Shown here: positions 17,356 to 35,588 of the stretch, in pieces
Numbering within the stretch: the stretch's first letter is position 1
Layout: every line of letters begins with the position of its first letter
Source: Chloroflexota bacterium
GTDB taxonomy: Bacteria; Chloroflexota; Dehalococcoidia; UBA2247; RBG-13-53-26
Direction: 5' to 3'
Assembly (NCBI GenBank): GCA_016875915.1
Contig: VGOM01000010.1
Coordinates: 1 to 64,000, forward strand
Length of the DNA stretch: 64,000 nucleotides
Made by a program: the position numbers and the translations under genes
The notes under the pieces: generated by a model
Databases searched by the model: none
Seen by the model: the letters and a program-made list of their open reading frames with translations, nothing else
Told to the model about the DNA's origin: nothing

Positions 17356-17584
17356 GGGCGTGACGTGCGGAGCGGGGACCGGGGCCCGTCCCGCTGATTG
17401 ACGCTGGGCAAGGTGGGCCCCGAGCGTCCATCCGTGCTGCGGCTCCTCCTGTCTGTCCTACCGTTCCCCGAGAGTGAAGAGATCACCCCGGTCCCGGCCG
17501 CAGATGGCGTCTGCCGCCTGCCCTGGGGAGGGACTGAGACAACTGTTCACCCCTCACCCGTCAGAGCGACCCCGGCGAGGCCAG

Positions 17585-18553
17585 ATGGACCTCTATCTTG
17601 GTATTGACGTCGGCTCTGTCACCGCCAAGCTGGCCCTGATCCATGTGACCGGCGACGTGGCCGGCTCGGTGTATCTGCGCACCTGCGGCAATCCTATCGC
17701 TGCCGTACAGCAGGGGCTGCGGAGCGTGAAGGATATGCTCCCTGGGGGTGGCATCATCCGCGGCGTGGGCACGACCGGGAGCGCCCGGTACCTGGCAGCG
17801 GCCATAGTCGGCGCCGACGCGGTCAAGAACGAGATCTCCAGCCAGGCGGTGGCCACTGTGCGGTATGTGCCCCAGGCCCGGACCATTGTTGAGATCGGCG
17901 GCCAGGACAGCAAGATCATCATTCTGAGACAGGGGGCCGTGGCCGACTTCGCCATGAACACGGTCTGTGCCGCCGGGACAGGCAGCTTCCTGGACCATCA
18001 GGCCTCCCGCCTCGGCCTGGACATAGGCGATTTCGGGGATCGCGCCGCCGGGAGCCAGGGGAGTGTTCGGATCTCCGGGCAGTGCACCGTCTTCGCCGAG
18101 TCCGACATGATTCAGAAGCAGCAAATGGGATATGCTGTGGACGATATCCTCTACGGACTGTGTCAGGCTCTGGTGCGGAACTACCTCCACAACGTGGGTG
18201 CGGGCAAGGACGTGGCTTCCCCCATCGTCTTTCTGGGTGGCGTGGCTTTCAACCGGGGGATGGTCAGAGCCTTCAGGCAGATGCTGGGAACGGAGGACCT
18301 GACCGTGCCTCCCCATCATGAGGTCATGGGGGCTGTCGGGGCCGCTCTACTGGCCATGGAGGACAGCGGGCGTCGGGACGCCGGGACCAGGTTCCGCGGG
18401 TTCGGAGCGTGTGAAGCCACCTACGCCGTCTCGTCCTTTGAATGCAGCGTTTGTTCCAGTCTCTGCGAGATCGCCCAGGCCGCCGTCGACGGAGATGTCC
18501 TGGGACGCTGGGGCGGGCGCTGCGACCTGTGGAGCAGGGTGTTGACCGGCTAG
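17585..18553 (+). CDS. BcrA/BadF/HgdC-type CoA-enzyme activase (orphan)
   Basis: A 322-residue ASKHA ATPase of the 2-hydroxyacyl-CoA dehydratase/benzoyl-CoA reductase activator family, which pumps low-potential electrons using ATP. GIDVGSVTAK starts at residue 6, GTTGSAR, EIGGQDSK, MNTVCAAGTG, CTVFAESDMI and FLGGVAFNRGM follow; the cysteines in CAAGTG and CTVFAES ligate the dimer-bridging [4Fe-4S] cluster in relatives. The C terminus continues into FECSVCSSLCEI...GGRCDLW, which resembles the beginning of the DUF2229 domain found after the ATPase in larger relatives, then stops. No dehydratase or reductase subunit is nearby. The start is ATG 17585. Confidence 0.88.
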   Translation: MDLYLGIDVGSVTAKLALIHVTGDVAGSVYLRTCGNPIAAVQQGLRSVKDMLPGGGIIRGVGTTGSARYLAAAIVGADAVKNEISSQAVATVRYVPQARTIVEIGGQDSKIIILRQGAVADFAMNTVCAAGTGSFLDHQASRLGLDIGDFGDRAAGSQGSVRISGQCTVFAESDMIQKQQMGYAVDDILYGLCQALVRNYLHNVGAGKDVASPIVFLGGVAFNRGMVRAFRQMLGTEDLTVPPHHEVMGAVGAALLAMEDSGRRDAGTRFRGFGACEATYAVSSFECSVCSSLCEIAQAAVDGDVLGRWGGRCDLWSRVLTG

Positions 18554-20022: not shown

Positions 20023-21468
20023 ATGGTCGGAATAACGTCCTACGGTGCCTACATTCCATGGCACCGGATGAAACGGGAGGACTGCGTCAAGGCCTGGGGC
20101 GGGTTCGCCATGCCCGGGGAAAGGGCGGTGGCCTACTACGATGAAGACAGCGTGTCCATGGCCGTGGAGGCAGCCCTGGATTGCCTCACAGGCGTGGACG
20201 CCAAGAAGGTGGACGGCCTGTTCTTCGCCACCACCTCATCGCCATACAAGGAGAAGCAGTGCTCGGCCCTGATCGCCGTGCCGCTGGACATGCGCTCCGA
20301 TATCCGCACCGCCGACATCACCACCTCCCTCCGGGCCGGAACCAGTGCCCTGATGCTGGCGGCCGACACGGTCAAGTCCGGTTCGGCCCACAGCTTGCTG
20401 GTGGCCGCCGCCGACATGCGCCTGGGGGCTCCGGCGGGGATGGGCGAGCAGCAGATGGGCGACGGTGGGGTGGCCCTGCTGGTGGGCAAGGACCATATGA
20501 TTGCCGAAATACTGGGCACATACTCCACGTCAGACGAACTGGCGGCCACCTGGCGGTCGGAGGAAGACAAGTTCGTCCGCGCCGGCGAAGACCGCTTCGT
20601 GATGGACGAAGGCTACTCCAAGTGGGTGCCCGAGGCCATCGGCGGGGTGCTGAAGAAGTGCGGACTGACTCCCAAGGATATCACCAAGGTGACCCTCGAT
20701 CCCCCGGGCGATCCCAGAAGACACGGCAAGGCCATAACCCAGGCCGGATTCGAGGCCGGGCAAATGCAGGACCCCTACGGGCTGGTCCTGAACGTGGGCC
20801 TCCCCGGCTGCGCCACGTCCCTGATGATGCTCGTGGCTGCCCTGGAGGACGCCAAGCCGGGCGACAGGATCCTGGTGGTGGGCAGCGGCAATGGGGCCGA
20901 CGCCATGATCCTCCAGGTCACCGATGCCATCGGCAAGCTGGGCGAGCGGCGGGGCATCAAGAAGAACGTGGCCTCCAAGCAGGTGATGGCCAACTATAAT
21001 GACTACCTCCGCTGGCGGGAGTTGGTGCCCCAGGAGGCGGCGCGCCGGCCCGACAAGCAGCATATCCGGTTCTCGGCCAACTGGCGGGAGAGGAAGCAGT
21101 TGCTGGGGCTCTGGGGGGTGAAGTGCCGGCGCTGCGGCACTCCGCAATACGACAACGGCGCCGCCACCACCGGCCCCATCCGCATCTGCGCCCAGTGCCA
21201 GGCCCAGGACGACTTCGACGACTACAACTTCGTCAGAAGAAAGGCCAAGGTCTTCAGCTATACCCAGGACAACCTTGCCGCCGTGACCGATCCGCCGGCC
21301 TCCGTGGTGCTGATCGAATTCGAAGGCGGGGGGCGGGCATTCTTCGACCTCACCGATCGTGATCCTGCCAAGGTCGAGGTGGGCATGCCTGTGGAGATGA
21401 CCTTCAGGAAGCTGCAGTATGACCGGGGCCTGACCAACTACTTCTGGAAAGCCCGACCGGTAAGGTAG
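20023..21468 (+). CDS. HMG-CoA-synthase-like/DUF35 fusion, catalytic residues missing
   Basis: A 481-residue fusion. Residues 1 to about 340 have the HMG-CoA synthase/KAS III thiolase fold; the remainder is a DUF35 domain with zinc ribbon CRRC (368-371)...CAQC (389-392) and an OB fold. At the nucleophile position the usual AC-x-x-GT reads TSLRAGT, with Leu103 in place of Cys. The Glu motif (usually GTET) reads ATTSS near 70, and the usual FHxP histidine segment reads LDPPGD near 225. A normal condensation is therefore unlikely. Archaeal HMG-CoA synthase works in a complex with thiolase and DUF35; here DUF35 is fused. ATG 20023 follows AGGAGGTG. Confidence 0.85.
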   Translation: MVGITSYGAYIPWHRMKREDCVKAWGGFAMPGERAVAYYDEDSVSMAVEAALDCLTGVDAKKVDGLFFATTSSPYKEKQCSALIAVPLDMRSDIRTADITTSLRAGTSALMLAADTVKSGSAHSLLVAAADMRLGAPAGMGEQQMGDGGVALLVGKDHMIAEILGTYSTSDELAATWRSEEDKFVRAGEDRFVMDEGYSKWVPEAIGGVLKKCGLTPKDITKVTLDPPGDPRRHGKAITQAGFEAGQMQDPYGLVLNVGLPGCATSLMMLVAALEDAKPGDRILVVGSGNGADAMILQVTDAIGKLGERRGIKKNVASKQVMANYNDYLRWRELVPQEAARRPDKQHIRFSANWRERKQLLGLWGVKCRRCGTPQYDNGAATTGPIRICAQCQAQDDFDDYNFVRRKAKVFSYTQDNLAAVTDPPASVVLIEFEGGGRAFFDLTDRDPAKVEVGMPVEMTFRKLQYDRGLTNYFWKARPVR

Positions 21469-21483
21469 AAGGAGGCGAGAGAA

Positions 21484-22653
21484 ATGCCAGGGAGCATTAG
21501 AGATAAGGTTGCCATCGTCGGCATGGGCTGCACCAGGTTCGGTGAGCTGTGGGACAAGGGACCCACCGACCTCATCGTGGAGGCGGTCAATGAGGCCCTG
21601 ACCGACGCCGGGGTCGAGTTGAAGGATATCCAGGCCGTCTGGGGCGGTACCCTGTTCAGCGGCACCGGGGGCCGGACGGTGAGCGAGGCCCTGCGGCTGC
21701 AGTACGTACCGGTGACCAGGGTGGAGAACGCCTGTGGCTCCGGCCACGAGGCGGTGCGGGGTGCTTCGTATGCGGTAGCGGCCGGCATCTACGACATCTG
21801 TCTGGCCGTGGGCTATGAGAAACTGAAGGACGAGGGGATGGGTGGTCTGCCCGGGATGGAGAACCGGACCAACACCCACTACCAGTCCAGCATGCCGGGG
21901 GTCTTCGCCATGATGGCCACCCGGTACTTCCACCGCTACGGCCTGAGCCCGGAGGAAGGCAAGAAGATGCTGGGCAAGATCTCAGTGAAGAGCCACAAGA
22001 ACGGGGCCATGAACCCCAAGGCCCACCTGCGGAGGGAGATAACCCTGGAGCAGGTGCTGGGCGCGCCGATCATCGCCTGGCCGCTGGGCCTGTTTGACTG
22101 CTGCGGCGTCTCCGATGGCGCGGCAGCCGCCGTCATCGTCAGGGCGGACATGGTGAAGAAGTTCCACAACAAGCCGGTCTATGTGAAGGCATTGCAGATC
22201 TCGGCCAGCCCGACCACGGGCCGGATGCTGACCAGCTACGACTACACCCACGTTGAGGAGGCCCACCGGGCCGGTATCGCGGCCTACAAAGAGGCCGGCA
22301 TCACCAATCCCCGGCAGGAGATCAGCATGGCCGAGGTGCATGACTGCTTCTCCATCACCGAGGCGGTGACCATGGAGGACCTGCAGTTCAGTCCCCGGGG
22401 GCGGGTGAAGGAGGATATCGACGCCGGGACCTTCGAGCTCGGCGGATCGCTGCCGGTGCAGCCCGACGGGGGCCTGAAGTGCTTTGGCCATCCCATCGGT
22501 GCCTCCGGGATCAGGATGCTCTACGAGCCGTGGCTGCAGTTCCAGGGCAGGGCGGGGAAGCGCCAGATCAAGGATCCCAAGCTGGCCCTGGCCCACAACA
22601 TGGGCAACGAGCCCTATGCCCCGGTGGTCAGCGTCTGCATCGTGGGTCTCTAG
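21484..22653 (+). CDS. SCP-2-type thiolase, active site intact
   Basis: A 389-residue thiolase of the lipid-transfer/SCP-2 type. It has the nucleophile in ENACGSGHEA (C84), H286-D-C288 in VHDCFSITE, and the CFGHPIGASG motif (C333, H336). It should cleave or form 3-oxoacyl-CoA. It lies 15 nt after the HMGCS-like/DUF35 fusion with a GGAGG site and is followed by a strong terminator, so the pair forms one operon. DUF35 domains are known to pair with thiolases of this type (archaeal HMGCS-thiolase complex, BbsAB). Confidence 0.88.
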   Translation: MPGSIRDKVAIVGMGCTRFGELWDKGPTDLIVEAVNEALTDAGVELKDIQAVWGGTLFSGTGGRTVSEALRLQYVPVTRVENACGSGHEAVRGASYAVAAGIYDICLAVGYEKLKDEGMGGLPGMENRTNTHYQSSMPGVFAMMATRYFHRYGLSPEEGKKMLGKISVKSHKNGAMNPKAHLRREITLEQVLGAPIIAWPLGLFDCCGVSDGAAAAVIVRADMVKKFHNKPVYVKALQISASPTTGRMLTSYDYTHVEEAHRAGIAAYKEAGITNPRQEISMAEVHDCFSITEAVTMEDLQFSPRGRVKEDIDAGTFELGGSLPVQPDGGLKCFGHPIGASGIRMLYEPWLQFQGRAGKRQIKDPKLALAHNMGNEPYAPVVSVCIVGL

Positions 22654-22757: not shown

Positions 22758-22787
22758 TTGACAGGCCAGAAGGACGGGGCCTACCCT
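22758..22787 (+). promoter_or_regulatory. Possible promoter of acyl-CoA dehydrogenase operon
   Basis: TTGACA (22758-22763), 18-bp spacer, TACCCT (22782-22787), 15 nt before ATG 22803. The -35 is perfect and the -10 weak. Confidence 0.4.
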
Positions 22788-22802
22788 TTGTCTCGGGAAG
22801 CT

Positions 22803-23981
22803 ATGGAATTCGAACTGACGCCTCAGCAGCAGGACTTCGAGAGGCAGATCAAGGAGTATTTCCGGGAGAGGGTGACCCTCGAGCTGGAGCAGGAGATCGA
22901 TGTCCTGCCTGAGGGTGACGGCCCCCTGTGCAAGCAGTTCATCAGACAGCTGGGCAGCGACGGGTGGATGGGCCTGGGCTGGCCCAGGGACTACGGTGGC
23001 CGGGGCCTCTCGGCCGTGGAGCAGTACATCTTCTTCGACCTGGCGCTGGGCTACTACCACATCCCCATCCCCATGCTGGCGGTGATGACGGTAGGCCCGA
23101 CCATAATGAGGGTGGGCACCGAGGAGCAGAAGAAGAGGTTCCTGCCGCCCATACTCAGGGGGGAGCTGAGCATCGGCATCGGCTACACCGAGCCCGAGGC
23201 GGGAACGGACCTGCTGTCCCTGAAGACGACGGCCGTCAGGGACGGCGACGACTACGTCATCAACGGGCAGAAGACCTTCACCTCCATGGGCCATGCCTGC
23301 GACTACTTCTGGCTGGCGGTGAGGACCGATCCCAAGGCGGCCAAGAAGTACCAGGGGATCTCCATCTTCCTGGTCGACGCCAAGACCCCGGGCATCACGG
23401 TGGAGCCCATCTGGACCATGGCCGGGTTCAGGCTGAACCAGGAGTTCTTCGAGAACGTCAGGGTGCCCAGGGACTGCCTCATCGGCGAGGAGAACCGGGG
23501 GGCGGAGTACCTCTTCATGCAACTGGCCCACGAGCGGATAGCCCTGTCACCGCACTCGTTCTCCCTGGGCGCCCTCCGGGGGGTGACCCGGTGGGCCAGG
23601 GACAACAGGCTGAACGGGGAGCCCGTCCTCGAGCAAGGCTGGGTGAGGAACAGGCTGGTGGAGCTGACCGTGGAGATGGAGGTGCTCAAGCTGCTCAACT
23701 ACCGGGTGGCTTGGCTCATCGCCGGTGGCGCTGTGCCCGTGGTGGAGTCGTCGATGATCAAGGTCTTCGGCAGCGAGCATATCAGAAGGGTCACCGATGC
23801 CTGCCTGCAGATCATGGGCCTGTTCGGGCAACTGCAGACCGGCTCGAAATGGGTCCCCCTCAGGGGCAGGCCCGAGCACGTCTACAGAATGGACGTCCTG
23901 CTCACCTTCGGCGGCGGGACGAACGAGGTCCTGAGGGATATGATGGCCATGATGGGACTGGGGCTGCCCAGATCGAGATAG
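22803..23981 (+). CDS. Acyl-CoA dehydrogenase, subunit-like A
   Basis: A 392-residue FAD-dependent acyl-CoA dehydrogenase-fold protein starting MEFELTPQQQDFE at ATG 22803. It has YTEPEAGTDLLSLKTTA and INGQKTFTSMGHACDYFW in the middle domain and AHERIALSPHS in helix G. The C-terminal signature is TFGGGTNEVLRDMM; the Glu that precedes GT in medium-chain enzymes (YEGT) is Gly here. It is followed at once by a second, dissimilar dehydrogenase gene. Adjacent unlike pairs form alpha2-beta2 enzymes in actinobacterial steroid catabolism, so a heteromer is likely. Confidence 0.85.
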   Translation: MEFELTPQQQDFERQIKEYFRERVTLELEQEIDVLPEGDGPLCKQFIRQLGSDGWMGLGWPRDYGGRGLSAVEQYIFFDLALGYYHIPIPMLAVMTVGPTIMRVGTEEQKKRFLPPILRGELSIGIGYTEPEAGTDLLSLKTTAVRDGDDYVINGQKTFTSMGHACDYFWLAVRTDPKAAKKYQGISIFLVDAKTPGITVEPIWTMAGFRLNQEFFENVRVPRDCLIGEENRGAEYLFMQLAHERIALSPHSFSLGALRGVTRWARDNRLNGEPVLEQGWVRNRLVELTVEMEVLKLLNYRVAWLIAGGAVPVVESSMIKVFGSEHIRRVTDACLQIMGLFGQLQTGSKWVPLRGRPEHVYRMDVLLTFGGGTNEVLRDMMAMMGLGLPRSR

Positions 23982-24041: not shown

Positions 24042-25190
24042 TTGAACTTCGCTCTGAGCGATGAACAGGAACTTCTGAGGAAGGAAGCCCGGAACTTCCT
24101 GGAGACGGAATGCCCCAAGTCGCTGGTGAGGCAACTGGAATCCAGCGATCTGGGCTACTCGCCGGAGCTGTGGCGGAAGATGGCCGACCTGGGCTGGCTG
24201 GGACTGATCGTGCCTGAGGAGTACGGCGGGGTGGGCGGCAGCCTGATGGACCTGGCAGTGCTCTTCGAAGAGGTGGGCAGGGCGGCCCTGCCCGGCCCAC
24301 TGTTCAGCACCGTGGTCCTGGGCGCTCTCCCCGTCCTGGAGGCGGGGAATGAGGAACAGAAGAGGCACTTCCTGCCCCGGGTGGCCCGGGGCGAGGCGAT
24401 GCTGACCATGGCCCTGACCGAGCCGGAGGCCGACTACCGGCCGGGATGGTACCGGACCAGAGCCGTGCGCCGGAGAAGCCGCCTGACCCTCAGCGGGACC
24501 AAGCTCTTCGTCCAGAACGCCCATATCGCGGACTACCTCCTGGTAGTGGCCAGAACGGGCCGGACGGGCTCCGCGGCAGCAGGTGTCAGCATCATCATGG
24601 TGGCACGAGATACCCCGGGGATGGGCCGCCACCCCCTGGTGACCATAGCCGGCGACAGGCAGTTCGAGGCGACCTTCGACCGAGTGCCGGCGTCTATCAG
24701 CGATATCCTGGGGGAACTGCACAACGGCTGGCCCGCGGTGGAGAAGACCATGCGCCAGGCCGCGGCCATCCGCTGCGTGGAGATGGTCGGCGTGGCCCAG
24801 AAAGCCATGGAGATGACCTCCAGCTATGCAGGGACGCGGATACAGTTCGAGCGGCCCATCGGCAGCTTCCAGGCGGTGCAGCACCGCCTGGCGGACATGA
24901 TGACCGACGTCGAGGGGGCGCGGTGGCTGTCCTACCAGGCCGTCTGGCGCCTCAGCCGGGGTCTGCCCGCCGAGAAAGAGGTGGCCATGGCCAAATCCTG
25001 GACCAGCGACGCCTGCCTTCGGGTGACCTCCGGCGCCCAGCACATCCACGGCGGAGTGGGCATGGATTTGGACTACGACCTGCACTACTACTTCCGCTGG
25101 GCCAAGGCCCTGGAGCTGGACCTGGGCGCGGCCCCGACGCATCGGGCCGCAGCGGAGCCGGCCATCCTGGACTACCTGCTGGCGGAGTAG
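24042..25190 (+). CDS. Acyl-CoA dehydrogenase, subunit-like B
   Basis: A 382-residue acyl-CoA dehydrogenase-fold protein. Typical segments are GWLGLIVPEEYGGVGGSLMD, ALTEPEADYRPG, and IQFERPIGSFQAVQHRLADM; the C terminus has HIHGGVGMDLDYDLHYYFRWAK. The TEPEAGSD motif is altered (TEPEADYRP) and no canonical C-terminal catalytic Glu is evident. The start at 24042 is TTG, following GGAGGAGG. It lies 60 nt after the first dehydrogenase and is probably its partner. Confidence 0.83.
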   Translation: MNFALSDEQELLRKEARNFLETECPKSLVRQLESSDLGYSPELWRKMADLGWLGLIVPEEYGGVGGSLMDLAVLFEEVGRAALPGPLFSTVVLGALPVLEAGNEEQKRHFLPRVARGEAMLTMALTEPEADYRPGWYRTRAVRRRSRLTLSGTKLFVQNAHIADYLLVVARTGRTGSAAAGVSIIMVARDTPGMGRHPLVTIAGDRQFEATFDRVPASISDILGELHNGWPAVEKTMRQAAAIRCVEMVGVAQKAMEMTSSYAGTRIQFERPIGSFQAVQHRLADMMTDVEGARWLSYQAVWRLSRGLPAEKEVAMAKSWTSDACLRVTSGAQHIHGGVGMDLDYDLHYYFRWAKALELDLGAAPTHRAAAEPAILDYLLAE

Positions 25191-25373: not shown

Positions 25374-26528
25374 ATGACCGAACGAGTGGGGATCGTGGCG
25401 GTGGCCCAGACCAAGTACAGTCCCAACAGAGCCGATGCCAACGAAGGGGAGCTGGTATACGAAGCGGTGAGACAGGTGCTGCAGGAGACGGGGCTGAAGT
25501 TCGCCCAGGACGGCAGCGGCATCGATGCCACCGTGACCTGCTCGCAGGACTTCTGGGACGGCAGAACCATATCCAGCTGCAACGTGATGTCCTATGTGGG
25601 TCACCACCACAGCGATGAAGACAAGGTTGCCGAGGATTCCCTGAACGCGGTGTACACCGCCTTCGCCCGCATCCTGTCAGGTCATCAGGATGTGATCCTG
25701 GTGGCCACCCACTGCAAGGAGTCGCAGGGCGACAAGAGGGGCATCGAGAACGCGGCCATGGACCCCATCTTCCTCAGGGTTCTGGGCCTGGACTTCCTCA
25801 GCGCCGCCGCACTGCAGGCCAGGCGCTACATGTACAAGTACGGCATCACCCCGGAACAGTGCGCCCGGGTGGTGGTGAAGAACCGGGGCAACGCCAAGAG
25901 GAACCCCTTGGCTCAGGAGCCCATGGAGATCACCGTAGAGGACGTCCTGGGCTCGCAGGTGCTGGCGTCGCCCATCAGGCAACTGGACAGCAAGCCCACC
26001 TCCGACGGGGCCTGCGCCATGATCCTGGCCCGGGAGGGCAAGGCGAAGAAGTTGGCCAGGAAGCCCATCTGGATACTCGGGGCGTCCAACTGCTACGAGA
26101 CCAACTACCTGGGTGACCGGGACCTGGCCGAGTGCGATGCCCTGGTGACGGCGGCCAAGAAGGCCTACAAGATGGCCGGGATCAAGGACGTCATGAACCA
26201 GGTCAACGTGGCCGAGATATCGGAGGAATACTCCTACCAGGAGCTGCTGTGGATGGAGGGACTGGGCTTCTGCCAGCGGGGGGAAGCCGGGAGACTCCTG
26301 GACAGCGGGGTGACCCAGATGGGGGGGCAACTCCCGGTGAACCCCTCGGGCGGCATGCTGGCCGGCAATCCCACCGTGGTGGCCGGGATGGCCCGAGCAG
26401 CGGAAGCAGTGCTGCAACTGCGGGGTGAGGCCGGTGAGCATCAGGCAGAGGGGGCCAAGAAGGCTCTGGTTCACGGCTTCACTGGCGCCTGCGGTCAACT
26501 GCAGGGCGTCATGATCCTGGGCAACTGA
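25374..26528 (+). CDS. Thiolase-like protein without catalytic residues (1)
   Basis: A 384-residue protein aligning end to end with SCP-2-type thiolases. Where the thiolase at 21484 has ENACGSG, this has KVAEDSLNA with no Cys; HDC of VHDCFS is S-E-E followed by Tyr286; the GHP motif is G-N332-P. Ordinary thiolysis is not expected. In DUF35-associated aldolases such as Ltp2, tyrosines replace the thiolase machinery, and Tyr286 lies in the equivalent region; this is an analogy only. It starts an operon with a paralogue, two DUF35 proteins, an FMN protein and a hydratase. Confidence 0.8.
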   Translation: MTERVGIVAVAQTKYSPNRADANEGELVYEAVRQVLQETGLKFAQDGSGIDATVTCSQDFWDGRTISSCNVMSYVGHHHSDEDKVAEDSLNAVYTAFARILSGHQDVILVATHCKESQGDKRGIENAAMDPIFLRVLGLDFLSAAALQARRYMYKYGITPEQCARVVVKNRGNAKRNPLAQEPMEITVEDVLGSQVLASPIRQLDSKPTSDGACAMILAREGKAKKLARKPIWILGASNCYETNYLGDRDLAECDALVTAAKKAYKMAGIKDVMNQVNVAEISEEYSYQELLWMEGLGFCQRGEAGRLLDSGVTQMGGQLPVNPSGGMLAGNPTVVAGMARAAEAVLQLRGEAGEHQAEGAKKALVHGFTGACGQLQGVMILGN

Positions 26529-26545
26529 TTGTCGGAGGTAGAGAC

Positions 26546-27715
26546 ATGGGAAACAGAGTAGCGATAGTCGGAATAGGCCAGACCTACCACAAGAGCGCCC
26601 GCAAGGATGTCAATCAGCAGGAGATGGTCGGCGAAGCGGTCAGAGCGGCCCTGGCGGATGCCCAGATGAAGGCCAAGGACGTGGAAGCGGTATTCACCTC
26701 GAACATGGAGACGTTCGAAGGGTTGTTCCTACCTGATCACCTGATGGCCGACGAAATTGCGGCCTACATGAAGCCGGGGTTGAAGGTGGCTACCGGAGGG
26801 ACCAGCGGTGCCTCGGTGGTGGAGGAAGGTTTCCATTTCGTCGCCTCGGGCCTCTTCGACACGGCGCTGGTCATCGGCTTCGAGAAGCAGGACACCGGCG
26901 ACACCACTGCGGCCATCACTGCGGCGGTCACCCCGGTCTGGGGCAAAGGGGTGGCCACCGGTGCCATCGGGGAGTTCGCCAAGCAGGCCCTGACGTATAT
27001 GGAGAGGAGCGGTGCCAAGGAAGAGCACGCGGCCATGGTCCGCTTGAAGGCGGACAAAGGAGCCTGCCGCAATCCCTATGCCCATCTGAAGCTGGGCCTG
27101 AAGAGTATCAAGGAAGTCCTCGACTCCGGCTACCTGGTCTGGCCTCTGCGGCTGCTGGACTTCTGCCCGCAGTCCTGCGGGGCCTGCGCATTGATCTTGG
27201 CCTCGGAGAGCCGGGCGAAGAAGATCACCAAGAAGCCGGTCTGGATAGCCGATGTGGTCACGGTGCACCAGGAGCCGTTCAGGGCCGGGTCCTTCGGAGA
27301 CCCCACCGGGACGGAGGAGTACAGCCAGGACATCGCCGCTGAGAGGCTCTACAAGAGGAACGGCATCACCAATCCCATGAAGGACATCTGCATGGCGGAG
27401 ATCTACGAGCCGTCCAACTGGGAGGAGATGAGCCACTACGAGCACTACCATTTCTGCGAGAAGGGCGAGGGCTGGAAGCTGGTGGAGAAGGGGATAACGG
27501 AGATGGAGGGGGCGTTCCCGGTTAATCCCTCCGGCGGCGTCATCGCCACCAACCCCATAGGGGGTACCCCCACCATCCGGGTGGCGGAGGCGGCCCTGCA
27601 GGTCAGGGGCGATGCCGGCGAGCACCAGGTGACCCGGGACGTCCACACCGCAGTGGCCACCGCACTGGGCGGGCCGAACTGGACGGTGATGACACTGCTC
27701 AGAAGGTCGCTGTAG
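26546..27715 (+). CDS. Thiolase-like protein without catalytic residues (2)
   Basis: A 389-residue paralogue of the preceding gene. The nucleophile loop reads VATGGTSGAS (Gly85 at the Cys position), the HDC segment reads AEIYEPSNWEE, and the GHP motif reads ATNPIGG. Both paralogues keep the NPSGG turn. Only 17 nt separate them. The pair may form a heteromer with the two DUF35 proteins that follow. Function is inferred; a retro-aldol or retro-Claisen lyase is one option. Confidence 0.8.
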   Translation: MGNRVAIVGIGQTYHKSARKDVNQQEMVGEAVRAALADAQMKAKDVEAVFTSNMETFEGLFLPDHLMADEIAAYMKPGLKVATGGTSGASVVEEGFHFVASGLFDTALVIGFEKQDTGDTTAAITAAVTPVWGKGVATGAIGEFAKQALTYMERSGAKEEHAAMVRLKADKGACRNPYAHLKLGLKSIKEVLDSGYLVWPLRLLDFCPQSCGACALILASESRAKKITKKPVWIADVVTVHQEPFRAGSFGDPTGTEEYSQDIAAERLYKRNGITNPMKDICMAEIYEPSNWEEMSHYEHYHFCEKGEGWKLVEKGITEMEGAFPVNPSGGVIATNPIGGTPTIRVAEAALQVRGDAGEHQVTRDVHTAVATALGGPNWTVMTLLRRSL

Positions 27716-27725
27716 GAGGAGAAGG

Positions 27726-28214
27726 ATGACAACGGAGAAGACGGCTGAGAAGAAACCGGAATACCTCAAGGTTGAGATAGCCCGCCCACGGAGCTACAAG
27801 TGGTCCAGCGGGAAGTACCTGGGGAAGCTGTACAAAGAGGCTCTGGAGAAGAAGAAGCTGGTGACCAACCGCTGCCCCAAGTGCAAGCAGCTGATGTGGC
27901 CCCCCATGGCGGTGTGTGGCCGGTGCAACGTGGCGACGGGGGAGGACTGGGTGGAGATGAGCGACACCGGGACGGTGGTACAGTACACCTACCTGGTCTT
28001 TCCGCTGTGGGACCCCCACTACGGTGACAGGCTGGCCAATCCCTATCCGACGGCGACCATCAAGCTGGACAACGGCGTGTTCCTGGTACACTTCCTGGAA
28101 GAGAAGGACCCGGAGAAGCTGAAGAAGGTCAAGAGGGTTCAAGCGGTGTGGAAGGAGGAGGGGAGGGGGCGTGGTCTAGCCGATATCCTGTGCTTCAGGA
28201 CGATTGAGGAGTAG
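27726..28214 (+). CDS. DUF35 zinc-ribbon/OB-fold protein (1)
   Basis: A 162-residue DUF35 protein. A helix-rich N terminus leads into the zinc ribbon CPKC (50-53)...CGRC, then an OB fold with GTVVQYTYLVFPLW and a typical strand NGVFLVHFLEE. DUF35 proteins bind thiolase-fold partners and are thought to form or shape the CoA channel. It lies 10 nt after the second thiolase-like gene. Confidence 0.88.
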   Translation: MTTEKTAEKKPEYLKVEIARPRSYKWSSGKYLGKLYKEALEKKKLVTNRCPKCKQLMWPPMAVCGRCNVATGEDWVEMSDTGTVVQYTYLVFPLWDPHYGDRLANPYPTATIKLDNGVFLVHFLEEKDPEKLKKVKRVQAVWKEEGRGRGLADILCFRTIEE

Positions 28215-28225
28215 GAGGACGAGAG

Positions 28226-28705
28226 ATGGCTGAGCTGACAGCTGACCGAGTTGAGAGACTGAAAGACGCAGACGTCTTCATCTATCACGGGAAGATATAC
28301 ATCCCGGCGTCATACACTGCTGGTGCGGTGGGCAGCCGCTTCCTCATCGAGATGAGGGACAACAAGAAGATCATGGGCACGCGGTGCGTTGCCTGCGATC
28401 TGGTCTATGTCCCGGCGCGCTCCGTGTGCAAGCACTGCTTCGCCCAACTCGACAAGTGGGTGGAGGTCAGCGACAGAGGCACTCTGCAGACCTACACTGT
28501 AGCCGGCCAGGCCAACGGCGTACAGCCCGTCGACCCCCCGATCATCTACGGCGTGGTCCTCCTTGACGGAGCCAGCACCGGCCTGGTGCACATGATCAGC
28601 GGGGTGGATTTCGAGAAGCTGGCTGTCGGCATGCGGGTCAAAGCCGTCTTCGCCGAGAAGCGGGTGGGCAGCATCCTGGACATCAAATACTTCGCTCCGC
28701 TGTGA
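28226..28705 (+). CDS. DUF35 zinc-ribbon/OB-fold protein (2)
   Basis: A 159-residue DUF35 protein with CVAC (54-57)...CKHC, then the OB fold (GTLQTYTVAG, IIYGVVLLDG). It is clearly different from the preceding DUF35 protein, so two thiolase-like and two DUF35 proteins are encoded in sequence. It starts 12 nt after its neighbour, behind a GGAGG-type site. Confidence 0.88.
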   Translation: MAELTADRVERLKDADVFIYHGKIYIPASYTAGAVGSRFLIEMRDNKKIMGTRCVACDLVYVPARSVCKHCFAQLDKWVEVSDRGTLQTYTVAGQANGVQPVDPPIIYGVVLLDGASTGLVHMISGVDFEKLAVGMRVKAVFAEKRVGSILDIKYFAPL

Positions 28706-28761: not shown

Positions 28762-29880
28762 GTGTCGAAGAAGATCCTGCGCACCAGCCTGTGTGACCAG
28801 CTGGACATCGAGTACCCCATCCTCCTGGCCGGCATGGGCGGCGCGGCCAACGCCGAGCTGGCGGCCGCCGTCTCCGAAGCCGGCGGCCTGGGGATCATCG
28901 GGGCGATCAACCTCACCCCCGATGAGCTGGACGCCGAGATCAGGAAGCTGAAGAAGCTGACCTCCAAGCCCTTCGGTGTGGATACCATCGCCCCGACGAA
29001 CATGGTCGATGCGGCCACCATCGACGAGCTGAGGAACTACATCCCCGAGGAGGCGGTGGCCTACGCCTCCAAACTGGTGAAGGAACTGGGCATACCTGTA
29101 CCTGACGGGACCCGGTTCGGCAAGGAAGGCGGCACGGGCTGGGCGGCGGGCATGACCCCGAAGCAGATCGAGGTGGTCTATGATCACAAAGTGCCCGTCT
29201 TCGCGGCTGCCCTGGGCAGTCCAGCGTTCATGGTCCCCGAGGCCCACTCGCGGGGGATGAAGGTCATCGGCCTGGTGGGCACGGTCAACCAGGCCCGCAA
29301 GGAGGCGGAGGCGGGGGTGGACATCATCGTGGCCCAGGGCCACGAAGGCGGAGGGCACACAGGACATGTGGGCACCATGCCCCTGGTACGGCTGGCATCG
29401 GAGGCGGTGGCCCCGGTGCCGGTAGTGGCTGCCGGCGGCATCGCGGACGGCCGGGGACTGGTGGCCTCGCTGGCGCTGGGAGCCTGCGGGGTGTGGTGCG
29501 GCACGGCCTTCCTTTGTACCTATGAATCCGGCATCGAGGAGGTGGCCAAGGAGCGGATCATCAAGATGACGGAGCGGGACACCCGGGTGACCCGGGTGTT
29601 CACCGGCAAGACCTGCCGCCTGCTGACCACCAAGCTGATCGAGAAATGGGAGAAGGAGGGCCCGATGATGCCCTTCCCGCTGCCCATCGTGATGTGCACC
29701 AGCCTCCAGGACCACATCGGCAAGGCCAAGCTGGTGGACTACTACTTCATTCCCGCCGGCCAGATCTGCGGCGCGGTCACGGAGATGAAGAGCGCCGGGC
29801 AGGTGGTCAAGGAGATGGTGGAGGAGGCGGTGCGGCTGCTGGATGAGGACCTGCCGGCCCGAGTGAAGACCAGGAAATAG
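28762..29880 (+). CDS. FMN nitronate monooxygenase/enoyl-reductase-like protein
   Basis: A 372-residue TIM-barrel flavoprotein of the 2-nitropropane dioxygenase family. It has the substrate/FMN segments YPILLAGMGG near 19, SEAGGLGIIG, KPFGVD, QGHEGGGHTG (conserved His) and PVVAAGGIADGRGL. The family includes nitronate monooxygenase, FabK and IpdC of the steroid HIP pathway; the acyl-CoA context favours a CoA-ester oxidoreductase over nitronate oxidation. The start is GTG 28762 with GGAGTGA upstream. Part of the 25374 operon. Confidence 0.82.
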   Translation: MSKKILRTSLCDQLDIEYPILLAGMGGAANAELAAAVSEAGGLGIIGAINLTPDELDAEIRKLKKLTSKPFGVDTIAPTNMVDAATIDELRNYIPEEAVAYASKLVKELGIPVPDGTRFGKEGGTGWAAGMTPKQIEVVYDHKVPVFAAALGSPAFMVPEAHSRGMKVIGLVGTVNQARKEAEAGVDIIVAQGHEGGGHTGHVGTMPLVRLASEAVAPVPVVAAGGIADGRGLVASLALGACGVWCGTAFLCTYESGIEEVAKERIIKMTERDTRVTRVFTGKTCRLLTTKLIEKWEKEGPMMPFPLPIVMCTSLQDHIGKAKLVDYYFIPAGQICGAVTEMKSAGQVVKEMVEEAVRLLDEDLPARVKTRK

Positions 29881-29949: not shown

Positions 29950-30768
29950 ATGGCTGAGCAACTGGACATCACCACCAAGAACTGCACCGTGGAGCGGGAA
30001 GGCCATATCCTGATCGTCACCCTCAACAGGCCGGAGGCCAAGAATGCCCTGACCCCCTCCATGCTCATCGGCATGTACAAGGCCTGGCGTCTTCTGGAGG
30101 AACAGGATGACCTCTACTGCGGTGTGCTGACCGGCAAGGGGGACACGTTCTGCGCCGGCATGGACCTGAAGTCGGGCCCGGGGCCGGGCGATGACCCGGA
30201 GGAAATCCAGCGCCTGATGAAAGACGTGCCCAACCTCCACTGGCGGGCGCTGCTCCGGGAGAACCGGCCCAACAAACCGATCATCCTGGCCATCGAAGGC
30301 TTCGCCGTGGCCGGGGGCACCGAGATACTCCAGGGCACCGACATCCGCGTCGGCGCCGAGGACGCCAGGTTCGGGGTGACCGAGGTGGCCCGAGGCCTGT
30401 ATCCCATGTCGGCGTCGGCCATCCGTCTGCGCCGGCAGATCCCCTACTGCCTGGCGGCGGAGATACTCCTGCTGGGCCGGCACATCAGCGCCCAGGAGGC
30501 GCTGGACTGGGGACTGATCAACCGGGTGGTCCCCAAGGGCAAAGCTCTGGACGAGGCGCTGAACATCGCCCGGCAGCTCTGTGAGAATGCGCCCATATCC
30601 ATCAAGGCCATCACCCGCACCCTCCGCGAGATCGACGAGTCGGTCCCGGAGGCGGAGGCCCTGAAGCGACAGGACGAGATCGGCTGGCCCGTCTTTGCCA
30701 CGGAGGACTCCAAGGAAGGCATGAAGGCCTTCAAGGAGAAGCGCAAGCCGGTCTACAAGAACCGCTGA
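29950..30768 (+). CDS. Enoyl-CoA hydratase/isomerase family protein
   Basis: A 272-residue crotonase-fold protein. AGMDLKS and IEGFAVAGGTEILQGTD form the oxyanion hole, and FGVTEVARG and CLAAEILLLG keep acidic residues at the two crotonase catalytic positions. It shares the KEGMKAFKEKRKPVY tail type with the hydratase at 18997. ATG 29950 follows GGAGGAA. Probably the last gene of the 25374 operon; a GC-rich hairpin (30798-30820) follows. Confidence 0.87.
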   Translation: MAEQLDITTKNCTVEREGHILIVTLNRPEAKNALTPSMLIGMYKAWRLLEEQDDLYCGVLTGKGDTFCAGMDLKSGPGPGDDPEEIQRLMKDVPNLHWRALLRENRPNKPIILAIEGFAVAGGTEILQGTDIRVGAEDARFGVTEVARGLYPMSASAIRLRRQIPYCLAAEILLLGRHISAQEALDWGLINRVVPKGKALDEALNIARQLCENAPISIKAITRTLREIDESVPEAEALKRQDEIGWPVFATEDSKEGMKAFKEKRKPVYKNR

Positions 30769-34642: not shown

Positions 34643-34727
34643 GGGGGAGTGCTGGAATTGGCAGACAGGCATGACTTAGGATCATGTGCCGCAAGGCGTG
34701 GGAGTTCGAGTCTCCCCTTCCCCACCA
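34643..34727 (+). tRNA. tRNA-Leu (anticodon TAG)
   Basis: A class II tRNA with acceptor GGGGGAG/CTTCCCC (one G-U pair), anticodon loop CTTAGGA (TAG), long variable arm TGCCGCAAGGCG, T-arm GGGAG-TTCGAGT-CTCCC, discriminator A and an encoded CCA end. A TAGAAT box (34618-34623) is the likely -10. The BKACE gene starts 25 nt downstream. Confidence 0.96.
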
Positions 34728-34751
34728 CGCTCTGCCAGGTTGCAGCGAACC

Positions 34752-35588
34752 ATGCCAGACAACAAGTTCATCCTTAACTTCGCGCCGACGGGGCTGATCC
34801 CTACCCGGGAGATGACCCCGCATGTGCCCGTTCGGCCAGACGAGATCGTCAGGGACGTGCTGGAGGTGGCTGATCTCGGTGTGAGCATGGTTCACATACA
34901 TGCGCGGGACCCGGCGACCGGCAAGCCGACGCATGACAAGGAGGTCTATGGGGAGATCATCGGCGGGATCAGGAAGAAGCGGAAGGACCTTATTCTGTGC
35001 GTTTCGACGTCGGGCAGGGTGTTCAACAAGTTCGACAAGCGTTCGGAATGCCTGAACCTTGAGGGCAGGCTGAAGCCCGATCTGGGCAGCCTGACTCTGA
35101 GTTCGCTCAACTTCAACAAGCAGGCCAGCGTCAATTCTCCGCAGATGATCCAGGATCTGGCCAGACGGATGCTGGAAAGGGGCATCAAGCCGGAGCTGGA
35201 GGCGTTTGATCTGGGCATGATCAACTACGCCAAGTACCTCATCCAGAAGGGGCTGCTGCAGCCGCCGTACTACTTCAACCTGATTCTGGGCAACATTGCC
35301 TGTGCCCAGGCCGACATGCTTCATCTGGGGTTGATGATCAATGAGCTGCCGGAGGGGTCCATCTGGTCTGTGGGGGCTGTCGGTGACTCTCAACTGAGGA
35401 TGAACTCCATCGCCATTGCGGCCGGCGGGGGAGTCCGGGTGGGCCTGGAAGACAACATCTGGTTCGATGCAGAGAGGACGAGGCTGGCCACCAACCGGGA
35501 CATCGTGGAGAGGATCGTTTTCATCGCCAGGTCCATGGGCCGGGAGCCACTCAGTCCCAAGGAAGCCAGGAGCCTGTTGAAGCTGTGA
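34752..35588 (+). CDS. 3-keto acid cleavage enzyme (BKACE, DUF849)
   Basis: A 278-residue TIM-barrel Zn enzyme that cleaves beta-keto acids with acetyl-CoA in family members (Kce type). NFAPTGLIPTREMTPHVP at the start, the metal-binding HIHARDP near 47-53, PELEAFD near 150 and NLILGN are characteristic. The start is ATG 34752; codons before it overlap the tRNA. The specific keto acid is unknown; with the acyl-CoA genes it adds to a beta-keto-acid-handling theme. Confidence 0.9.
   Translation: MPDNKFILNFAPTGLIPTREMTPHVPVRPDEIVRDVLEVADLGVSMVHIHARDPATGKPTHDKEVYGEIIGGIRKKRKDLILCVSTSGRVFNKFDKRSECLNLEGRLKPDLGSLTLSSLNFNKQASVNSPQMIQDLARRMLERGIKPELEAFDLGMINYAKYLIQKGLLQPPYYFNLILGNIACAQADMLHLGLMINELPEGSIWSVGAVGDSQLRMNSIAIAAGGGVRVGLEDNIWFDAERTRLATNRDIVERIVFIARSMGREPLSPKEARSLLKL

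Follow-up and report, generated by a model that had tools for sequence, protein, structure and literature searches.

What can two thiolase-like proteins without a thiolase active site do beside two DUF35 proteins? The question is raised by four consecutive genes at positions 25374-28705 of a 64,000-nucleotide stretch of Chloroflexota DNA (assembly GCA_016875915.1, contig VGOM01000010.1, positions 1 to 64,000; here termed the window), which a preliminary description took for a heterotetrameric lyase resembling but distinct from Ltp2-ChsH2. We conclude that the four genes probably encode one heteromeric A-B plus DUF35a-DUF35b retro-aldol lyase of the Ltp3-Ltp4 kind, which would act on a 3-hydroxyacyl-coenzyme A (CoA) with B as the catalytic subunit. 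The preliminary description overlooked that this four-gene arrangement occurs widely and that Ltp3-Ltp4 is an existing example of it.

Replacement of the thiolase active site in A and B

All four genes lie on the forward strand, separated by intergenic gaps of 17, 10 and 11 base pairs. The first two, assigned by open reading frame, Pfam matches, alignment and tree, encode the thiolase-like subunits A (25374-26528; 384 amino acids; Ltp3-type) and B (26546-27715; 389 amino acids; Ltp4-type, the proposed catalytic subunit). They are followed by the DUF35 proteins Da (27726-28214; 162 amino acids) and Db (28226-28705; 159 amino acids), each with a zinc ribbon (CxxC...CxxC in Da) and an OB fold. 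A and B, 34% identical to each other, match Thiolase_C_1 (1e-34 and 8e-24, respectively) and, weakly, Thiolase_N, which places them in the thiolase superfamily, while their top NCBIfam models are the generic 'thiolase domain-containing protein', far under the cut-off. Da and Db both match zf-ChsH2 and OB_ChsH2_C (DUF35).

AlphaFold2 models of A and B, computed from alignments of 53 and 37 homologues, have predicted local distance difference test (pLDDT) scores of 93.7 and 87.1, respectively, and their folds match the structures of SCP2-thiolase, the ACAT of the ACAT/HMGCS complex, BbsB, Ltp2 and Sal. Specifically, the closest structures to the A model are ACAT (6et9/6esq) and 4yzo, with Ltp2 (6ok1) also matched, and the B model matches SCP2-thiolase, BbsB and Ltp2 (6ok1). 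Both proteins are thus predicted to be full-length, well-folded members of the superfamily.

For reading the motifs we used as reference the neighbouring intact thiolase T (21484-22653), which has NACGSG, HDCF and GHP. At the Cys, HDCF and GHP sites of T, A has EDS-LNA, SEEY and GNP, and B has GGTSG, YEPS and TNP, so that, as originally described, both paralogues have lost the nucleophilic Cys, the HDC segment and the GHP His, in different ways; the replacements are conserved well beyond chance. In B, Gly replaces the Cys, a YxP motif (Tyr287, Pro289) replaces HDC, and Asn336 replaces the GHP His, and these residues are retained in 74/74 (Gly), 74/74 (Tyr287), 73/74 (Pro) and 74/74 (Asn336) homologues. 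In A, the nucleophile loop is three residues shorter and bears Asp88, which is present in 82 of 83 homologues, and Arg249 is present in all 83; the HDC and GHP sites vary among these homologues, and the conserved set particular to A comprises Asp59, Asp88 and Arg249. On these alignments, B retains an ordered non-thiolase site and A a different conserved set. The loss of Cys, HDC and GHP together with the invariant replacements in B excludes thiolysis by the usual mechanism and leaves a conserved site.

In the alignment, Tyr287 of B falls on the Tyr that is catalytic in Ltp2 (YDHF motif), and the catalytic Tyr of Sal (YDCY motif) occupies the same site (PMC12329534). The 'Tyr286' proposed at the outset as a conserved residue stands as Tyr287 of B (286 when counted from zero) and fails for A, in which position 286 corresponds to the aromatic residue of HDCF (F 46, Y 36, V 1; n = 83) and is ruled out as catalytic. 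Two other candidate readings were rejected: an active thiolase, as neither protein has Cys, HDC or GHP; and pseudogenes or decaying genes, given the open frames across phyla and the invariant replacements.

The relationship to Ltp3-Ltp4

To place A and B, we built two trees, both without Sal and SLP sequences, and located actinobacterial Ltp3 through its own NCBIfam model. We take PRK07937 to be Ltp3 and its neighbour to be Ltp4, in line with the mycobacterial ltp3-ltp4 locus and with gene order, and NF004715/PRK06059 is likewise taken as Ltp4. In the 108-row maximum-likelihood tree, one clade unites A and Ltp3 (100/99) and another B and Ltp4 (100/98), the two clades mirror each other, and Ltp2, active thiolases and single thiolase plus DUF35 pairs form a separate group (100/99). 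In the 40-row tree, all A and B types lie on one side of a branch (100/99), with A plus Ltp3 at 98/97 and B plus Ltp4 at 97/93. Ltp2, which lies outside the A/B clade in both trees, is ruled out as the nearest relative. The early hypothesis of a lyase resembling but distinct from Ltp2-ChsH2 is supported: B has the Tyr that is catalytic in Ltp2 and Sal, and A and B share one clade with Ltp3-Ltp4, apart from Ltp2 and the active thiolases. For the divergent C4b-type pair of the host, the 108-row tree points to an independent origin (98/91), although a test of the single-origin topology does not reject it (p-AU 0.26).

A scores 181.5 bits against NF005924/PRK07937 (cut-off 419) and B scores 137 bits against NF004715/PRK06059 (cut-off 424), and these scores below the curated cut-offs indicate membership in the same superclade but in a different ortholog group. 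Actinobacterial Ltp3 is of the A type and its neighbour Ltp4 of the B type, with the same residue signatures: the Asp and the loop deletion are shared by A and Ltp3, and Gly, Tyr-x-Pro and Asn by B and Ltp4. In addition, two DUF35 domains are encoded alongside, in an adjoining Rv3521-like protein at the actinobacterial loci (L179-L187) and in two separate genes in L185, which makes the double-DUF35 protein a likely further component of the Ltp3-Ltp4 enzyme. The product of Rv3521, encoded near ltp4, is still termed hypothetical (PMC9782250).

The literature treats Ltp3-Ltp4 as a heteromeric aldol lyase from which acetyl- or propionyl-CoA is released (PMC6678751). Both proteins are reported to be essential when the sterol side chain is branched at C24, but not when it is straight (PMC6273163, citing Wilbrink 2012). 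Their regulated sterol gene set also includes acyl-CoA dehydrogenases and EchA19 (PMC6593523). The window-type modules differ in that their DUF35s are usually separate genes, whereas the actinobacterial ones are fused except in L185, and in that they occur in mostly uncultured, probably anaerobic bacteria and archaea; the window module itself lies outside any recognised sterol cluster.

These genetic data bear on a further reading, in which A and B would be non-catalytic, either binding acyl-CoA or serving as a scaffold that holds acyl-CoA dehydrogenases and the hydratase together. The disappearance of every canonical thiolase residue, the variability of A at the HDC and GHP sites and the description of DUF35 as a scaffold or staple (PMC10398937) would fit such a role, but the retention of Tyr, Pro and Asn at the catalytic sites of B across phyla, and of the same residues in Ltp4, together with the specific branched-chain defect of the Ltp3/Ltp4 mutants, makes it improbable.

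Among the other known systems, the Ltp2-ChsH2(DUF35) steroid aldolase (6ok1) shares with A and B a thiolase fold without the nucleophilic Cys, a DUF35 partner and, with B, a Tyr at the former HDC His, and the Sal-Shy(DUF35) bile acid aldolase (9myr) shares the fold, the DUF35 partner and the site of the catalytic Tyr. However, Ltp2 has one kind of thiolase-like subunit, with YDHF and Tyr344, and Sal is a homodimer of one thiolase-like subunit, with YDCY and an essential Cys304; B carries neither the YDHF plus Tyr344 pair of Ltp2 nor the YDC plus Cys304 pair of Sal, but Tyr287, Pro289 and Asn336. PhlACB, the MucABC acyltransferases, ACAT/HMGCS/DUF35 and the benzoylsuccinyl-CoA thiolase BbsAB are likewise heteromeric machines of thiolase-family and DUF35 proteins, but their active subunit keeps the nucleophilic Cys, and the Cys, HDC and GHP signature of SCP2-type thiolases and BbsB is absent from A and B. 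The composition also departs from that of PhlACB, since the PhlA or HMGCS partner is HMG-CoA synthase (HMGS)- or KAS-III-like, whereas the A/B module has a second SCP2-thiolase-like protein and neither A nor B is HMGS-like.

Distribution and composition of the module

A scan of a collection of named genomes with an alignment of close A sequences returned 195 relatives, of which 80 loci (numbered with the prefix L) were kept; most come from metagenome-assembled genomes, and several end at contig edges. The loci belong to Chloroflexota, Thermodesulfobacteriota, Deltaproteobacteria (in the old sense), Acidobacteriota, Bacillota, Actinomycetota (Geothermincola) and archaea (Methanolliviera, Freyarchaeota and Jordarchaeum), and the taxonomy of all these hosts suggests that they live anaerobically. 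Among the named genomes, the closest relatives of the window's host are Chloroflexota, mostly Dehalococcoidia, with an A 89% identical in L089. The host genome itself (2.16 Mb in 115 contigs) encodes 18 DUF35 domains, 20 Thiolase_C_1 proteins and five complete A/B/DUF35/DUF35 modules, the four besides the window module lying on L029 (C4:44000-59000), L030 and L031. One of these, the C4a module (L029:3888-7081), nests with Ltp3/Ltp4 proper in the 108-row tree.

Nearly all of the roughly 60 clusters not cut by a contig end contain all four parts. The order is ABDD in 36, DABD in 20 and DDAB in one, and expanded four-part orders occur once each as ABDDBD, ADDBB and DABD inside a longer cluster; the remaining clusters are L096, in two pieces, which looks broken, and L159, which is nearly cut off. 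In L096 (7001-12918), B seems truncated, and the opposite strand carries another B-like gene accompanied by two DUF35s, as in a rearranged or broken module. L119 (107-3407) has an interleaved BDAD arrangement in the order B-beta-A-alpha.

As first described, the two DUF35 genes of the window are dissimilar: Da and Db are 37% identical and fall into separate clades, alpha and beta, respectively. These two clades accommodate the DUF35s of the modules generally, with one of each in 38 of 41 ABDD and 24 of 24 DABD modules; window-type and C21-type modules follow this rule, and the three exceptions are all of divergent types, among them C29 and C4b of the host. Lone thiolase-like genes in the same phylum are accompanied by a single DUF35, which, with one DUF35 per clade in each module, points in sequence terms to one DUF35 paired with each thiolase-like subunit. 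For the fused actinobacterial domains, the distances to the alpha and beta clades are too large for assignment. A fixed alpha or beta partner for A or for B is not claimed: L102 (7001-11970; ABDDBD), in which the additional B is accompanied by an additional DUF35 of the alpha clade, would pair alpha with B, but the order in L119 disagrees.

The proposed four-part set of A, B and two DUF35s is borne out by this pattern, in which A and B are separate, co-inherited lineages and a module normally has one DUF35 of each clade. If A and B were instead independent enzymes with different lyase or decarboxylase activities that form no heterodimer, the separate conserved set of A and the additional B copies, one in L102 and a tandem second copy in L116 (7001-11730; ADDBB), would be accommodated. 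The near-constant co-occurrence of A and B, the mirrored clades and the reported requirement for both Ltp3 and Ltp4 make such independence very improbable.

Gene neighbourhood and the proposed reaction

The window module is flanked on one side by two acyl-CoA dehydrogenases and on the other by a flavoprotein and a hydratase, all on the forward strand. Specifically, acyl-CoA dehydrogenase 1 (22758-23981; conserved in L090 and L103) and acyl-CoA dehydrogenase 2 (24042-25190; beside A in L089-L092 and L103), a possible partner of the former, lie upstream, and a FabK/nitronate-monooxygenase-like flavin mononucleotide (FMN) protein (28762-29880; conserved in L089, L092 and L103) and a crotonase-type enoyl-CoA hydratase (29950-30768; conserved in L089 and L091) lie downstream. 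Dehydrogenase 1 and the FMN protein are assigned to a putative operon with the module, and parts of this gene order recur in L089-L092 and L103. The best named match of the crotonase is PRK07799 (338 bits, above its cut-off); its score against EchA19 is 323 bits, below the cut-off of 400. Among the 51 related loci of at least 9 kb, raw counts give 33 with an acyl-CoA dehydrogenase, 35 with a hydratase (crotonase or hot-dog) and 28 with both, and further neighbours include CoA ligases, CoA transferases and 3-hydroxyacyl-CoA dehydrogenases. Such a neighbourhood would be expected of a pathway of dehydrogenation and hydration followed by carbon-carbon cleavage.

In the proposed lyase reaction, an acyl-CoA would be desaturated by the acyl-CoA dehydrogenases and hydrated by the enoyl-CoA hydratase to a 3-hydroxyacyl-CoA. 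Tyr287 of B would then deprotonate the beta-hydroxyl, the bond between C-alpha and C-beta would break with the thioester enolate held by Asn336 and backbone amides, and protonation of the enolate would yield a ketone or aldehyde together with acetyl- or propionyl-CoA. Subunit A, through its Asp88 and Arg249, may be the non-thiolase partner that completes the dimer, with one DUF35 on each thiolase-like subunit. By analogy with the Ltp3/Ltp4 genetics, the substrate is probably branched or tertiary at the beta carbon, and its cleavage would resemble that in the mycobacterial breakdown of plant sterols.

Four points weigh against this assignment. First, B lacks an obvious counterpart of the acid Tyr344 of Ltp2 or Cys304 of Sal, having Asn and Pro at these positions, and this is the weakest point of the mechanism. 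Second, the hydratase of the window is a crotonase, whereas that of the Ltp2 and Sal systems is of the MaoC type fused to DUF35. Third, the window module is an ortholog group apart from Ltp3/Ltp4, so that transfer of the substrate by homology is unsafe. Fourth, biochemistry for any member of the module was not found in the papers searched, where the only functional data are the Ltp3/Ltp4 genetics.

The same fold and partners could also run in the bond-forming direction, with an acyl-CoA enolate adding to a carbonyl in an aldol- or Claisen-like step of biosynthesis, as in PhlACB or HMG-CoA synthase complexes. PhlACB, MucABC and ACAT/HMGCS/DUF35 are indeed heteromeric thiolase-family and DUF35 machines of synthesis, the putative operon also holds a PhlA/PhlC-like pair upstream of the module, and CrtI/CrtO-like desaturases stand beside some modules. 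Nevertheless, A and B have no nucleophilic Cys as acyl carrier, which the active subunits of the synthetic systems keep; hydratases and acyl-CoA dehydrogenases dominate the context, which also has some CoA ligases and CoA transferases, as in degradation; and Ltp3/Ltp4 is catabolic. A synthetic role is thus unlikely.

The pair just mentioned consists of an HMGS-like protein fused to DUF35 and lacking the catalytic Cys (SLRAGT), followed by the intact thiolase T (20023-22653 for both), and looks like a PhlA(B)-PhlC-type pair. The closest Protein Data Bank match of the fusion is PhlA, the partner described as inactive, and Cys is likewise missing at that position from eight HMGS-like paralogues of the host, most of which have such a thiolase as neighbour, and from one in L090. 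The CrtI/CrtO-like flavin adenine dinucleotide (FAD) oxidoreductases adjoin the module, together with CoA transferases, in four Chloroflexota loci (L093, L095, L101 and L137), which might be a hint of isoprenoid substrates.

In the papers and structures searched, Ltp3-Ltp4 has no structure, defined active site or recognised DUF35 partner, and the conserved four-part module offers a concrete model for it, which identifies the subunits, proposes catalytic residues and suggests a likely stoichiometry. Uncultured bacteria and archaea commonly have this machinery, and there the best family models are the generic 'thiolase domain-containing protein' or 'acetyl-CoA acetyltransferase', so that metabolic reconstructions of these organisms probably mistake the module for a thiolase. 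More speculatively, the modules may constitute a widespread, unrecognised anaerobic bypass of the beta-branch block in isoprenoid and other branched acyl-CoAs, in which a four-protein tetramer, diversified over substrate classes, cleaves tertiary 3-hydroxyacyl-CoAs, formed by hydration, in a retro-aldol reaction without carboxylation. Were this tentative idea correct, cleavage would produce a methyl ketone besides acetyl- or propionyl-CoA, individual genomes of Chloroflexota and archaea would handle several substrate classes with sterol-degrading Ltp3-Ltp4 as one aerobic branch, and the tetramer would be pseudo-symmetric, all four positions of the Sal-type alpha-beta-beta-alpha assembly now being different proteins.

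Two further features of the window lie outside this gene group. A BcrA/BadF-type ATPase (17474-18553), of the family of activators of benzoyl-CoA reductase and 2-hydroxyacyl-CoA dehydratase, is followed by a 114-amino-acid protein without a Pfam match. At 34686-35588 the window encodes a beta-keto acid cleavage enzyme (BKACE family), and BKACE genes are also present in 13 of the 51 related loci.

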